Shown here: piece by piece, positions 56,074 to 60,055 of the stretch
How positions within the stretch are numbered: the stretch's first letter is position 1
Layout of the letters: each line of letters opens with the position of its first letter
From: Elusimicrobiota bacterium
GTDB lineage: Bacteria; Elusimicrobiota; Elusimicrobia; UBA1565; UBA9628
NCBI GenBank assembly: GCA_016182905.1
Contig: JACPFR010000037.1
Coordinates: 1 to 63,986 of the forward strand
Direction of reading: 5' to 3'
Length of the DNA: 63,986 bases
The notes under the pieces: generated by a model
Database searches by the model: none
Seen by the model: only the letters and a program-made list of their open reading frames with translations
What the model was told of the DNA's origin: nothing
Program-made: the position numbers and the translations under genes

Positions 56074-57453
56074 CTAGCGGAAGAGGCCGGCGAAAGGGTC
56101 GAAGCGCTTCTCGAGGTACTGCACCGCCCGCTCGTACGAGGACCATTCGCGCTGGGCTTCCGCGGCGGTCTTCTCGAAGGCGAGCGCGGGCCGGGTCAAG
56201 GTGATGGTGTCGAGGGCATAGCCGCCCCACTCCCCCGGGCTTCCGGAGAAGCCGTACTCGAACGCCCAGCCCTCAGCGATCAGGCGGCGGATCAGCGGTC
56301 CGTGCTTCCCGATGATCACCGAGCGCTGCTCGGGGTTCGGGTCGTTCTGGATGATCAGCTGTCCGCCGGGCGCGATCCAGTCGGTCATCGTCTCGAGCTT
56401 CTTGTCGAAGCCGGGGACGTAGTGCACCGCGTTCTTCGTGCGCAGGACCGCGAGCGGCTTGGCGGGGCGCTTGAGCTGGAGCAGGTCGGCCTCGACGGCG
56501 GCCGCGTTCTTCGCGCCCGCCAGCTCGGCGGCGGTGTTGAGATAAGACACGACGAAGGGCGAGTAGTCGAAGAACGAGTAACGGGTGCCGGGCTCGAGCT
56601 CGCGGTGGATGAAGCCCTGCGCGTTCATGCCCGCGGCCATGTCCCAGTACTCCCCGCCCGGGATCGGGCTCGGCGGCAGGTTGCGGGGCACGGTCTGGCC
56701 GAGGCGCTTCATCATCGCGATCTTCATCGCGATGAGCTTCTCCTGGCCGTGGTCCCGGAACGCGTTCCAGCGCCCGAGCAGCTCCATGAACCGGCGGGAG
56801 GGCGCGTCCTCGCGCTTGTCGTGGGTCGAGATGAAATCGGAGGCGGCGCGGTAGATCGCGAGAGGCTGGGACTTCAGGCCTTCCAGGAAGTAGCTTCCCA
56901 TGAAGGTGTACTTCTGCACCGCCCCGGCGGCCATCCCGACGAAGTCGCGTCCGAAGGTCTCCACCGCCCCGGACTTGGGAGCCGCCTGGCGGTACGCTGC
57001 CACCAGTTCGGCGTCGCTGGGCGGGCTGAGGCCGCTCGAGCGCCGGTCCTCGGGCGCGGAGGCGGGCACTGCCGGGCCGTCGCCGCTGGCGGGGGCCGAC
57101 AGGCCGGTCCCGTCGAACAAGGCGTTTCCGGCGGCGCGGGCCTGCTCGGAGCCGGGATTCTCCGGCTTGGCGGCGGCGGGCTTGATCGCGGCCAGGGCCG
57201 CGGGCGCAATCTTATCCGGCGCGGCGGCGGCGGGCTTGACGGCGACGGCTAAGGCGGGCGCCACGAGCGCCGGAGACAGCGACGCGGCGGTCAGCGCCGA
57301 GGGCGCGAGCTGCAGCGCGGGAGCGGCGAGGACGGGCGTCGGCGCCGCGACGGTGCCGAGGCCGGTCGTGGCGGAGACGCCGCCGCGGACCTGAGCCCAG
57401 GACGAGGACGGGAGCAAGGCCGCCGCAACGATCAACGCCGCTATCTTCTTCAC
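56074..57453 (-). CDS. Exported methyltransferase-like protein with Pro/Ala-rich region
   Basis: The 459-residue product has a Sec signal (to SSWAQ), a Pro/Ala/Leu-rich stretch (residues about 25-100) and an LFDGT motif at 112-116. A C-terminal domain of Rossmann-methyltransferase type begins near residue 270: GGEYWDMAAGMNAQGFIHRE (motif-I-like), RYSFFDYSPFVVSYL, AVEADLLQLKRPAKPLAVLRTKNAVHYV, and WIAPGGQLIIQNDPN. Since SAM is cytosolic, a periplasmic methyltransferase is odd, so the domain may have lost SAM activity. GTG start 6 nt after a TACTCT box. Confidence 0.6.
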   Translation of the reverse strand: MKKIAALIVAAALLPSSSWAQVRGGVSATTGLGTVAAPTPVLAAPALQLAPSALTAASLSPALVAPALAVAVKPAAAAPDKIAPAALAAIKPAAAKPENPGSEQARAAGNALFDGTGLSAPASGDGPAVPASAPEDRRSSGLSPPSDAELVAAYRQAAPKSGAVETFGRDFVGMAAGAVQKYTFMGSYFLEGLKSQPLAIYRAASDFISTHDKREDAPSRRFMELLGRWNAFRDHGQEKLIAMKIAMMKRLGQTVPRNLPPSPIPGGEYWDMAAGMNAQGFIHRELEPGTRYSFFDYSPFVVSYLNTAAELAGAKNAAAVEADLLQLKRPAKPLAVLRTKNAVHYVPGFDKKLETMTDWIAPGGQLIIQNDPNPEQRSVIIGKHGPLIRRLIAEGWAFEYGFSGSPGEWGGYALDTITLTRPALAFEKTAAEAQREWSSYERAVQYLEKRFDPFAGLFR

Positions 57454-57459
57454 GCCTTA

Positions 57460-57465
57460 AGAGTA
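57460..57465 (-). promoter_or_regulatory. -10 box TACTCT, leaderless start at 57453
   Basis: TACTCT on the minus strand ends 6 nt before the GTG. Confidence 0.45.
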
Positions 57466-57563
57466 GCGGTTGCGCGGGGGCCCTCCCAGGGTCCTAGGTC
57501 CCGTCGGGCGATGGGTCCATCAGCGGGGTTATCCACAATATTCCACCGGTGGAATCCCGCCTC

Positions 57564-58193
57564 TCAGGACGGCTTGAAGCCGATCTTGCGCCGGGGACGG
57601 GACGCCGGAGTGATCAGCTGGCGGATGGCGTCGAAAAGCTCCTGCAGCTGGCCGTCGTGGGTCCCGACGCGTTGTTCGAGCTCGTCCATCTTCTTCTGGA
57701 GTTGGGCGTGCGTTGAGAGCAATTCGCGCATCTTCACGAAGGCCTGCACTACCCGTACGCTGGCCTCGACGGCGACCGGGGTGTTGAGGACTGTCGCGAG
57801 CATTATTGCTCCATGCTCCGTGAACGCGAAAGGCCGGTACTGGAAATTGCGTCGTGATGCGGTCACAAATTGTGACCGCATCGACCAAGCCTCATCCGGA
57901 GTCAATTCAATCAGGAATCCGCGCGGGAACCGGTGAATATTACGGCGGACCTGCTGATTAAGTCGCTTCGTCGAGACCCCGTAGATGCGCGCCAGGTCCT
58001 CATCGAGCATGACCCGTAAGCCTCTGACCGGTATGATGTGCCGTTCAAGATCAGTCGTGATATGCTCCACCCTTATCATACGATTGAGAAGGCGAAAAAG
58101 TTGCATGCCGGGCGGGAATGCGGCGAAATCTGGGACCGCATGGATGAGGTCGCATTTCGCGACCTCATATGAGGTTGCAAATTGCAACCTCAT
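57564..58193 (-). CDS. ORF6N-domain protein
   Basis: The coordinates give the whole open frame (209 residues); the true start is probably the Met at 58079 (MIRVEHITTDLERHII), since ORF6N proteins begin about ten residues before that. The ORF6N domain reads ERHIIPVRGLRVMLDEDLARIYGVSTKRLNQQVRRNIHRFP, then MRSQFVTASRRNFQYRPFAFTEHGAIMLATVL; a helical C-terminal coiled coil follows. ORF6N domains occur in phage antirepressor-like DNA-binding proteins. G+C is low (29 of 60 in 58021-58080), and the region before and within the gene holds 25-bp palindromes. This looks like a mobile or phage-derived gene. Confidence 0.85.
   Translation of the reverse strand: MRLQFATSYEVAKCDLIHAVPDFAAFPPGMQLFRLLNRMIRVEHITTDLERHIIPVRGLRVMLDEDLARIYGVSTKRLNQQVRRNIHRFPRGFLIELTPDEAWSMRSQFVTASRRNFQYRPFAFTEHGAIMLATVLNTPVAVEASVRVVQAFVKMRELLSTHAQLQKKMDELEQRVGTHDGQLQELFDAIRQLITPASRPRRKIGFKPS
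57857..57881. repeat. 25-bp palindrome inside the ORF6N gene
   Basis: On the minus strand the arms are ATGCGGTCACAA and TTGTGACCGCAT around one central T, a perfect 12-bp inverted repeat. The symmetry extends by one more pair on each side. It encodes the conserved MRSQFVTA motif of the domain. Compare the copies at 58144-58168 and 58169-58193. Confidence 0.9.
58118..58141. repeat. Degenerate copy of the 25-bp palindrome
   Basis: Minus strand: ATGCGG at one end and CCGCAT at the other, with a degenerate centre and 24 bp length. Only the outer 6 bp pair perfectly. It is 2 bp from the next copy. Confidence 0.5.
58144..58168. repeat. 25-bp palindrome, tandem copy 1
   Basis: Minus strand arms ATGAGGTCGC and GCGACCTCAT flank a 5-nt centre. 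It abuts the next copy without spacing. Confidence 0.9.
58169..58193. repeat. 25-bp palindrome, tandem copy 2
   Basis: Minus strand arms ATGAGGTTGCAA and TTGCAACCTCAT around one central T. It lies just after the stop of the upstream glycosidase-like gene. Confidence 0.9.
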
Positions 58194-58197
58194 CCCT

Positions 58198-59319
58198 TTA
58201 CGGCTTCCGCGCCTCGATCAGCTCCAGGTATTGGCCCGCGGCCATGGACAGGCCGCGCTCGCAGGAGATGAAGAACGAGGTATAGGGCGTCCCGTCGGCG
58301 TTCACGGCCTCCAGGACATGGCCGTGGCGCGCGATGAGGGCCTCCACCGCCGCCCGCCCCTTCGCCGTGTCCCGCCCCAGCTTCTTGAGGCCGTTGAGCC
58401 ACATCAGCCCCAGGTGGAGCCAATGCGCGCGGTGATAGCCCCCCGCCAAGCGCGTGAGCCAAGGGACGGTCGCCGGGTCGTACTCGCCCAAGGCGCAGCG
58501 CATGGGCCAGGGCTCGTCGAGCTTCTCGGCGGCGAGACGGTCGGCCGCCTTGTTCAGGATCTCGGGGCCATAGGAGCGCAGGTACAGCGCCGCGACGGCG
58601 GCGTCCACGCTCATCGCCTCGGTGTCGGCGTGATCCCGGAAGCACTCCCCCCGCCAGCGGTCGGCGAGCAGGCGCGCGGCGAACTGGTCCGCGTCCATCC
58701 CCGGCTTCAGACCGATAGACGCGCCGCGGCGCAGCATCATCAGCACGCACAGGTTGTTGTAGGTCGACGAGGGCCGGCGTATGGTGTCCACCCAATCCCC
58801 GGTCACCCGGCGCGAGACGAGGCCCCCGAGCTCGAGGTGCTTCCCTTCATAGGAGTCGAGCAGGCCCTGCAGCGCCGCGAGCTGCTCCGCGTCGGGGCCG
58901 CGCCCCGTCCTCTCTTTGATCTCGGCCCAGCACCACACGAGCCAGGGCAGGTTGTCCCCGCGCCACCAGGGCATGTCGAAGCCTCTCCCGGGCCGGAAGC
59001 AGCTGGTCACGCGCCCGAGCCGCGCCGACTCGGAGGTCATGAGAGCGACCTGGCCGCGCAGGTACTCCTCGCCCAGCACGCCCCAGGCCCCGGCGAAGGC
59101 CTTGGCGAAGTCCGAGGGCCACATCGGCCAGAAATGGCCGTGCCCCGCGCGCAGGACCGGCCCGGCGTTGCGCCGAAGGACGCCAGCGACGATCTCCGCC
59201 GGGGTCCCGCCTCCCGGGGCGCGCTCGACGCCGCGCAAGATCACGCGCCAGGAGTCCAAGGTCTGCACGACCACGGTGTAGAACAGCTCGGGCGTGAGGT
59301 CGTAGGGGCCGGCGATCAT
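58198..59319 (-). CDS. Predicted (alpha/alpha)6-barrel glycoside hydrolase-like protein
   Basis: The 373-residue product has the pattern of six-hairpin glycosidases and amylo-1,6-glucosidase relatives: repeated aromatic-rich helical pairs (GHGHFWPMWPSDFAKAFAGAWGVL, FDMPWWRGDNLPWLVWCWAEIKE, YNNLCVLMMLRRGASIGL, GYHRAHWLHLGLMWLNGLKKLG). Asp in WPSDFAKA, a Glu in GKHLELG and another near DGTPYTSFFISCE are candidate acids. No signal peptide is visible, so it would be cytoplasmic. The substrate is unknown; a carbohydrate role fits the trehalose/maltose metabolism in the window, though the genes are 20 kb apart. Confidence 0.55.
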   Translation of the reverse strand: MIAGPYDLTPELFYTVVVQTLDSWRVILRGVERAPGGGTPAEIVAGVLRRNAGPVLRAGHGHFWPMWPSDFAKAFAGAWGVLGEEYLRGQVALMTSESARLGRVTSCFRPGRGFDMPWWRGDNLPWLVWCWAEIKERTGRGPDAEQLAALQGLLDSYEGKHLELGGLVSRRVTGDWVDTIRRPSSTYNNLCVLMMLRRGASIGLKPGMDADQFAARLLADRWRGECFRDHADTEAMSVDAAVAALYLRSYGPEILNKAADRLAAEKLDEPWPMRCALGEYDPATVPWLTRLAGGYHRAHWLHLGLMWLNGLKKLGRDTAKGRAAVEALIARHGHVLEAVNADGTPYTSFFISCERGLSMAAGQYLELIEARKP

Positions 59320-59326
59320 CGCGGGG

Positions 59327-60055
59327 CTAGAAGCCGGGCGTGATGTTGGGGCAGCGGGTCTTCAGGAACGCGGAGAGCTGAGCGTCAGTGTGCTTGAGCT
59401 CGTGGTCGCCGTTGGCGTAGGCGAATATCTCCGTATTCTTGACCGTGCACAGGTGGCCGAAGGCGTCGCGGAAGGTCGAGTCCGCCTTCGGGCGCCCGGC
59501 CGGCGACTCGCCCATGCGGAAGCCGGCGTCGAGCATGAGTCCTTGATAGCTCGTGATCTCCACGCCTCCGCGGTCGGCGGGGTCGATGCGGGGCGCGACC
59601 ACGACGGAGCCGCGATCGAGCGACGCGATCTGGGAGGTAGCCGGGTCGATGACCACGCGCCCGCCGTCGGCCATGACCACGGACACGGTGCCGGCCGTCT
59701 TGTCCATTTCAAGGGACAACGCTCCGGTCCGTGGAAAAAAGTAGAACTCGCGGGCCGAGGTCAGGTTGGGGTTGTTGTCCTCGCCGTCGCCGTAGGAATT
59801 AAAGACCATCAGCAGGCCGTTGCTGAAGAAGCCGTAGCTCCGGTAGATCAGGTCGGTCACGAGCATCGAGCCGATCGAGACATAGCACTTGCCCGAGGAG
59901 AAGCCGTCGGCGTACCCCTGCGTGTTGCCGACGTGCGAGGGCTCGACGCGCGGGCAGGCGCCGGCCGACGCCAGGGCTTTGAAAGCGGGGAGACGCAGAG
60001 ACGCGGACGACGACAGCGGCAGGCACAGCAACGCGAGGGCGAGCGCTATTCTCAT
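59327..60055 (-). CDS. Exported protein of unknown function
   Basis: The 242-residue product has a signal peptide (cleavage around SSSA-S) and a beta-rich mature domain with ACPRVEPSHVGNTQGYADGFSSGKCYVSIGSM, GFFSNGLLMVFNSYGDGEDNNP, and a Cys-containing end (RCPNITPGF). Three or four cysteines could form disulfides. No family is recognised. It is followed on the same strand after 7 nt by the glycosidase-like gene, so the two are probably co-transcribed. Start 6 nt after a TAGCCT box. Confidence 0.7.
   Translation of the reverse strand: MRIALALALLCLPLSSSASLRLPAFKALASAGACPRVEPSHVGNTQGYADGFSSGKCYVSIGSMLVTDLIYRSYGFFSNGLLMVFNSYGDGEDNNPNLTSAREFYFFPRTGALSLEMDKTAGTVSVVMADGGRVVIDPATSQIASLDRGSVVVAPRIDPADRGGVEITSYQGLMLDAGFRMGESPAGRPKADSTFRDAFGHLCTVKNTEIFAYANGDHELKHTDAQLSAFLKTRCPNITPGF

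Follow-up and report, generated by a model that had tools for sequence, protein, structure and literature searches.

What function could be served by 25-bp palindromes that occur both inside and directly in front of a single ORF6N gene? The question is raised by a stretch of 63,986 nucleotides from an Elusimicrobiota bacterium, the whole of which is referred to here as the window. Inspection of this sequence alone had led to two suggestions (the original prediction), namely that the palindromes are operators for a dimeric protein, perhaps the ORF6N protein itself, or that a motif of the gene gave rise to a palindromic element, which then multiplied. The analysis presented here favors the first. 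The palindrome is likely (probability about 0.8) to be the recognition site of the ORF6N protein itself, located within its own coding sequence and present in further copies at the promoter, although no binding data exist. Shown by computation are the conservation of the palindromes, conservation of the DNA in two reading frames, restriction of the sites to ORF6N loci, and co-variation between protein and site, including a held-out prediction.

The ORF6N gene of the window (57564..58079, minus strand) encodes a 171-aa protein with a helix-turn-helix (HTH) domain and a C-terminal coiled coil, and matches the PF10543 profile with 103.9 bits (cut-off 27.8; E = 5.5e-30). Based on orthologs and the domain boundary, we infer that the ATG at 58079, rather than that at 58193, is the likely start of the gene. 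Given this start, two abutting palindromes are located 65-114 bp upstream of the gene, outside the coding sequence, between it and the neighboring gene (58198-59319), and the peptide MRLQFATS, which the original prediction read from 58169-58193, is probably not translated as part of the ORF6N protein. In orthologous loci L037 and L177, the ORF6N gene directly follows a homolog of the window gene at 59327-60055; the gene at 58198-59319 intervenes in the window genome only and was either gained here or lost in those two loci.

The intragenic palindrome (57857-57881) is perfect, with 12/12 arm pairs, and its symmetry extends to 57856-57882 (27 bp, 13/13 pairs). This self-encoded site specifies residues 67-75, MRSQFVTAS. 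Upstream, 58169-58193 is likewise perfect (12/12 pairs), and its core GGTTGC is of the type usual for proteins carrying R25, Q28 and Q29, the class to which the window protein belongs. The adjoining palindrome at 58144-58168 has 10/12 pairs and, since its two mismatches flank the center, is intact outside the middle only. A fourth element, 58118-58141, has kept its outer arms alone and receives no score from the covariance model described below; as a near-intact palindrome is found at the aligned place in L037 and L177, it looks like a decayed site. Thus, the coordinates and sequences of the original prediction held as stated, as did the paired arm changes at positions 4/22, 8/18 and 9/17, the degenerate third upstream element and the placement of the family in and before an ORF6N gene, while the claim of three intact copies held only in part. 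A simple sigma-70 scan of the window did not find a promoter on the strand of the ORF6N gene.

ORF6N loci were gathered by protein similarity, blind to the palindrome stretch, 80 of them in other species and further ones in 58 related genomes. At one fixed place, 106/110 ORF6N genes, which come from many phyla and also from phages and plasmids, contain a palindrome with 10 or more of 12 pairs; its center lies 63 nt after the RFP motif or, in a second class, 61 nt after it. Homologs without the symmetry, which would have refuted the original prediction, are therefore not what is seen. Viral contigs yielded 13 loci using an alignment as query, versus one locus using a single protein. The mean number of pairs in the 110-gene set is 11.4/12, compared with 7.3 for synonymous randomisation even when the best center is taken. 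A held-out set of 90 full-length genes from the phyla of three other genomes gave the same picture: all 90 have at least 9/12 pairs at the same fixed place, with a mean of 10.98 pairs versus 5.55 for synonymous recoding at the same center. On the plasmid pTS1 of Treponema saccharophilum (L231), the palindrome has an unusual core, GGTCGAAAATTTCGACC, and the ORF6N gene is found between genes encoding a class I DNA methyltransferase and a restriction endonuclease subunit S.

The palindrome is translated in two different ways. In the first frame it reads L-R-S-Q-x-A-T-S, with variants such as LRFQFGT, LRCQIGT and WISQIVIS, while essentially identical DNA reads VVANCDHL in the second frame; the counts are 175 versus 18 genes in the first set and 72 versus 9 in the held-out set. 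Because the palindrome is kept whether it encodes RSQFATS or VVANCDHL, it is the DNA that is conserved and not the peptide. These results bear on the possibility that the symmetry arises only as a by-product, either of constraints on the protein or of mutational processes (template switching, gene conversion between the arms). It is true that the peptide motif can be encoded palindromically, and that the arms change in concert even in the promoter arrays of close relatives. However, the symmetry is lost on synonymous recoding, two unrelated peptides encode the palindrome, and homogenisation of the arms offers no way to link the site to residues 24-29 and 65-68, whose codons lie outside it (see below). 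We consider a by-product all but excluded.

For further analysis, the bases of each half-site were numbered outward from the center (k1 to k13); k3 (C) and k6 (T) are almost invariant. A covariance model of the palindrome family was built from 48 sites, and its alignment shows 98.4% standard pairs and a covariation score of 0.69, versus 0.18 for shuffled and at most 0.14 for slid alignments. Since the model set was chosen for symmetry, pair counts from unselected sites carry more weight: 2189 of 2310 cells are paired at k3-k12, and k1 is paired in only 147/231 sites. Such compensating changes, together with the central mismatches at k1, would also suit a hairpin with a small loop, and the internal copy is always transcribed, so that an mRNA stem-loop acting in attenuation, as an RNase target or in translational autoregulation by the protein must be considered. 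Only G-U survives as a pair in RNA, yet the sense strand shows 24 G-T mismatches against 40 of the A-C kind, hence no enrichment of the former, which favors DNA over RNA as the selected form. In addition, equally symmetric copies form arrays between genes, frequently too far out for a plausible 5' UTR, no Rfam match was found in 57000-59000, and the predicted reader of the code is an HTH. Taken together, these points make an RNA hairpin very unlikely.

The distribution of the sites within genomes is equally restricted. The exact 25-bp pattern occurs at the three window sites and nowhere else in the 3,981,423-bp genome. With the covariance model, 8 sites are detected in these 3.98 Mb (taking the better strand, E is about 1e-8 to 3e-3), all of them inside or at most ~300 bp upstream of three ORF6N genes: the window locus on C37 has its internal site and two upstream sites, the locus at C24:58935 an internal site and at least three further sites, and the locus at C24:70450 an internal site only. 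Random scatter across the genome, the other outcome that would have spoken against the original prediction, is thus not observed. Likewise, most strong matches in the 58 related genomes belong to ORF6N loci, within the gene or a short way upstream; of roughly 90 such matches, about 11 are orphan sites away from these genes. One of these orphans is an ORF6N gene fragment; another is found at a contig edge beside an M2-like peptidase gene, the kind that flanks the L006 array discussed below. Solitary palindromes without a recognizable ORF6N gene nearby were noted at L171 (G030:C17), L185 (G011:C1:3762611), L192, L193 and L194, and may be either remnants or true regulatory targets. Five ORF6N genes (L040, L072, L082, L083 and L105) contain a second palindrome, in frame, adjoining the usual one and of another site type.

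These tandem in-frame duplicates, along with the upstream arrays and the few orphan intergenic copies, could be taken to indicate a mobile palindromic element that enters genes in frame, comparable to the Rickettsia palindromic elements or REP/BIME. Against this stand the single fixed insertion point in nearly all family members, the absence of genome dispersal (8 sites, all at ORF6N loci) and the co-variation with helix residues encoded outside the palindrome, which a mobile element does not predict. Such an element is therefore judged very improbable. The suggestion that the palindrome multiplied from the gene's own motif holds only in the limited form of cognate promoter copies and occasional intragenic duplicates, and not as a dispersed element, because the sites are confined almost entirely to ORF6N loci genome-wide.

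The strongest support for recognition by the ORF6N protein comes from co-variation between half-site bases and protein residues, evaluated in 193 genes (effective number about 124). The dinucleotide k5k4 is coupled to alignment column 28 (z 38.8, 1.47 bits), column 25 (z 27.6) and column 29 (z 22), the next-best columns outside the palindrome reaching z values of about 10 or below. Further outward, k7 is coupled to column 24 (z 25), k8 to column 68 (z 24) and k10 to columns 67 and 65 (z 37 and 20, respectively); as a whole, k8-k12 track a loop at residues 61-68. For k5k4, the code can be read from residues 25/28/29: R-E-Q corresponds to CG, x-Q-A to CA, R-Q-Q to TG, x-R-A or Q-R-Q to GC, and x-K-A to TC. 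Genes of the second frame obey this code for the common classes, the CG class in 13/13 second-frame genes. The outer bases correspond to loop sequences in a similar manner: TTGA to GRGGRRY, TTAA to GRGQxKY, CTAA to GRGKxKY, TCAA to RGQIKY, ATGC to RRNxxRH/Y, TGGA to KMGxRR and AACC to KHRDPR.

Phylogeny was controlled for using 135 disjoint closest-relative pairs with a median background identity of 78%. Residue 28 differs in 95% of the 64 pairs in which k5k4 changed, compared with 7% of the 71 pairs in which it did not. The same holds for residue 24 and k7 (96% versus 20%), for residue 68 and k8 (95% versus 30%), and for residues 65 and 67 and k10 (100% and 97% versus 18% and 15%). One pair, at 93% identity, combines KRLNEQ with CG in one member and KRLNQQ with TG in the other. 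Moreover, k5k4 was predicted correctly from residues 28/29 in 23/25 non-redundant held-out genes, against a majority baseline of 7 and a shuffle maximum of 16, a test limited to 25 genes by removal of redundancy. The codons of the coupled residues lie outside the palindrome, and the coupling has no obvious explanation other than that the protein recognizes the site. We therefore think it very probable that ORF6N proteins bind their own coding sequence as dimers, both binding and dimerisation being inferred. The idea of operators for a dimeric protein is hence strongly supported by helix and loop co-variation, across phyla as well as among close relatives, albeit in the absence of binding data.

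By co-variation, the window ORF6N gene carries a palindrome cognate to its product in its own coding sequence; direct binding evidence is lacking. It also presents an exception to the code: the window protein is of the RQQ class, most members of which have TG-type sites, yet its internal site, 57857-57881, is of the CA type. The upstream site 58169-58193 is of the TG type, the usual partner of an R-Q-Q helix. Relatives of the window gene have TG, CA or one arm of each type.

An AlphaFold2 model of the window protein (mean pLDDT 78.6) places helices 26-33 and 37-46 in an HTH arrangement. Half-site co-variation (k4, k5 and k7) and the model together indicate residues 37-46 as the predicted recognition helix (codons at 57942..57971, minus strand); K38, R39, Q42 and Q43, equivalent to alignment columns 24, 25, 28 and 29, are situated on this second HTH helix in the model. 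The palindrome itself covers the codons for the last part of helix 61-70 and for the first part of a loop, modelled with low confidence, that runs on into a putative second specificity element, loop residues 76-81 (RRNFQY; columns 62-68; codons at 57837..57854, minus strand), identified by co-variation with k8-k12. No solved structure was found among sequence relatives of the window protein, and a fold search returned only weak matches, to the Ski/Dachshund DNA-binding domain (probability 0.97, E 0.17) and to MerR-type HTH domains. In the mechanism we propose, a dimer of HTH domains would read the two arms, with residues 24, 25, 28 and 29 of the second HTH helix contacting the bases 4, 5 and 7 from the center, and loop columns 61-68, encoded just after the palindrome, contacting bases 8-12. 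Binding within the gene and at the promoter would most likely repress the gene, as negative autoregulation, by promoter occlusion and by a roadblock within the gene.

The presence of promoter copies suggests autoregulation, though regulation and its sign are inferred without expression data. In total, 95 upstream sites were recognized at 59/285 loci, clustered 75-175 bp before the domain; at the thresholds used, they are recognizable at only about a fifth of loci. They resemble the internal site of their own gene more than expected, with 2.63 mismatches of 8 versus 3.45 after permutation (0/1000 permutations), the likeness residing mostly in the outer bases. In the window, 58144-58193 constitutes a second site at the gene's own promoter, cognate by the criterion used. 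Many upstream arrays, however, contain mixed site types that simple autoregulation does not explain. At L006, five palindromes (1826-2035) occupy the region between the ORF6N gene and a divergent M2-like peptidase gene. This array comprises several site types, one of the five resembling the gene's own site, and in the homologous region of L160 and L161 the array positions are kept while both arms change together.

Such arrays might instead be operators for several ORF6N proteins, allowing cross-regulation or competition, with the intragenic site reserved for self. In favor of such a network, the site types in arrays match other ORF6N specificity classes (L006, L160, L161, L029 and L141), array positions are conserved while site types change symmetrically, and ORF6N genes are found on phages and plasmids. 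On the other hand, the foreign-type sites of the window genome match none of its three full-length ORF6N genes, and upstream sites on average resemble their own internal site. A network remains a possibility. A match between upstream arrays and paralogs of the same genome was also considered, and did not hold in the window's genome.

Intragenic palindromes are not limited to ORF6N genes. At least 11/12 pairs were found in 12/25 Bro-N genes (PF02498; 0.2% expected), and strong palindromes in 8/17 KilA-N genes (PF04383; 0.3% expected) and 5/20 Rha genes (PF09669; 0/400 shuffles). The places recur from gene to gene, and the cores are different ones, among them GTCGACAATTTGTCGAC and GACCATTTTGTTGACGTCAACAAAATGGTC as well as cores centred on CGAATTCG and on CTGAATTTTCAG. 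Near-perfect palindromes, often of even length, were noted in Bro-N (L348-L377), Rha (L378-L407) and KilA-N (L409-L437) loci, example cores being GACCATTTTGTTGACGTCAACAAAATGGTC in L364 and TTTAATTCCATCGAATTCGATGGAATTAAA in L418. With coupling data for ORF6N only, we lean slightly towards the view that carrying a cognate site within the gene itself is what defines the whole superfamily of ORF6N, Bro-N, KilA-N and Rha regulators. If so, specificity and target would move and evolve as one cassette within the coding sequence of a DNA-binding domain, providing phages and mobile elements with portable self-regulating or self-addressing genes whose code is readable from genomes alone.

If binding is as inferred, a concrete activity and a testable base-by-residue code are assigned to a very common, unstudied family of phage-type regulators, and one and the same coding sequence is selected both for the protein domain it specifies and for the DNA target that this domain reads. 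Each gene would then hold the key to its own protein, so that specificity could be read from sequence for thousands of ORF6N proteins, and probably for Bro-N, KilA-N and Rha proteins as well, and ORF6N proteins could become orthogonal repressors. A span of about 140 bp in one gene contains both the specificity residues and the site, so that the two would move together in horizontal transfer, and an ORF6N gene with its own site may be a self-contained, self-regulating gene, regulation again being inferred. One may then ask what leads mobile elements to keep a regulator inseparable from its operator.

ORF6N (PF10543), of which the window gene is a clear member, and its relatives Bro-N, KilA-N and Rha are phage anti-repressor-type proteins (PHROG 4792). 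Judged from search listings, no published ORF6N site or recognition code was found in the open-access literature searched, in which the only ORF6N text also mentioning palindromes is a phage genome report; papers on the 'multicopy nucleotide sequences' of Geobacter, considered as a possible earlier description, make no mention of ORF6N in the passages retrieved. Roi of phage HK022, annotated as a DNA-binding protein, has a Rha-like N-terminal and a KilAC C-terminal domain (cf. the Rha proteins of phi80 and P22) and is reported to bind near or within its own gene; a long palindrome was not found in the HK022 roi gene. E. coli PurR has two purR operators, one of them intragenic. ORF6N genes resemble such PurR-type autoregulators in having a cognate palindrome inside the gene and one near the promoter. 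Rickettsia palindromic elements and REP/BIME are palindromic DNA sometimes found in frame within coding sequences. These, however, are dispersed across genomes and over many genes, whereas the ORF6N palindrome belongs to a single gene family and keeps a single position there. Likewise, in contrast to individual cases of the PurR type, the ORF6N site is a fixed part of the domain coding sequence in nearly every member of a large family, is read in either of two frames and evolves in step with the specificity residues.
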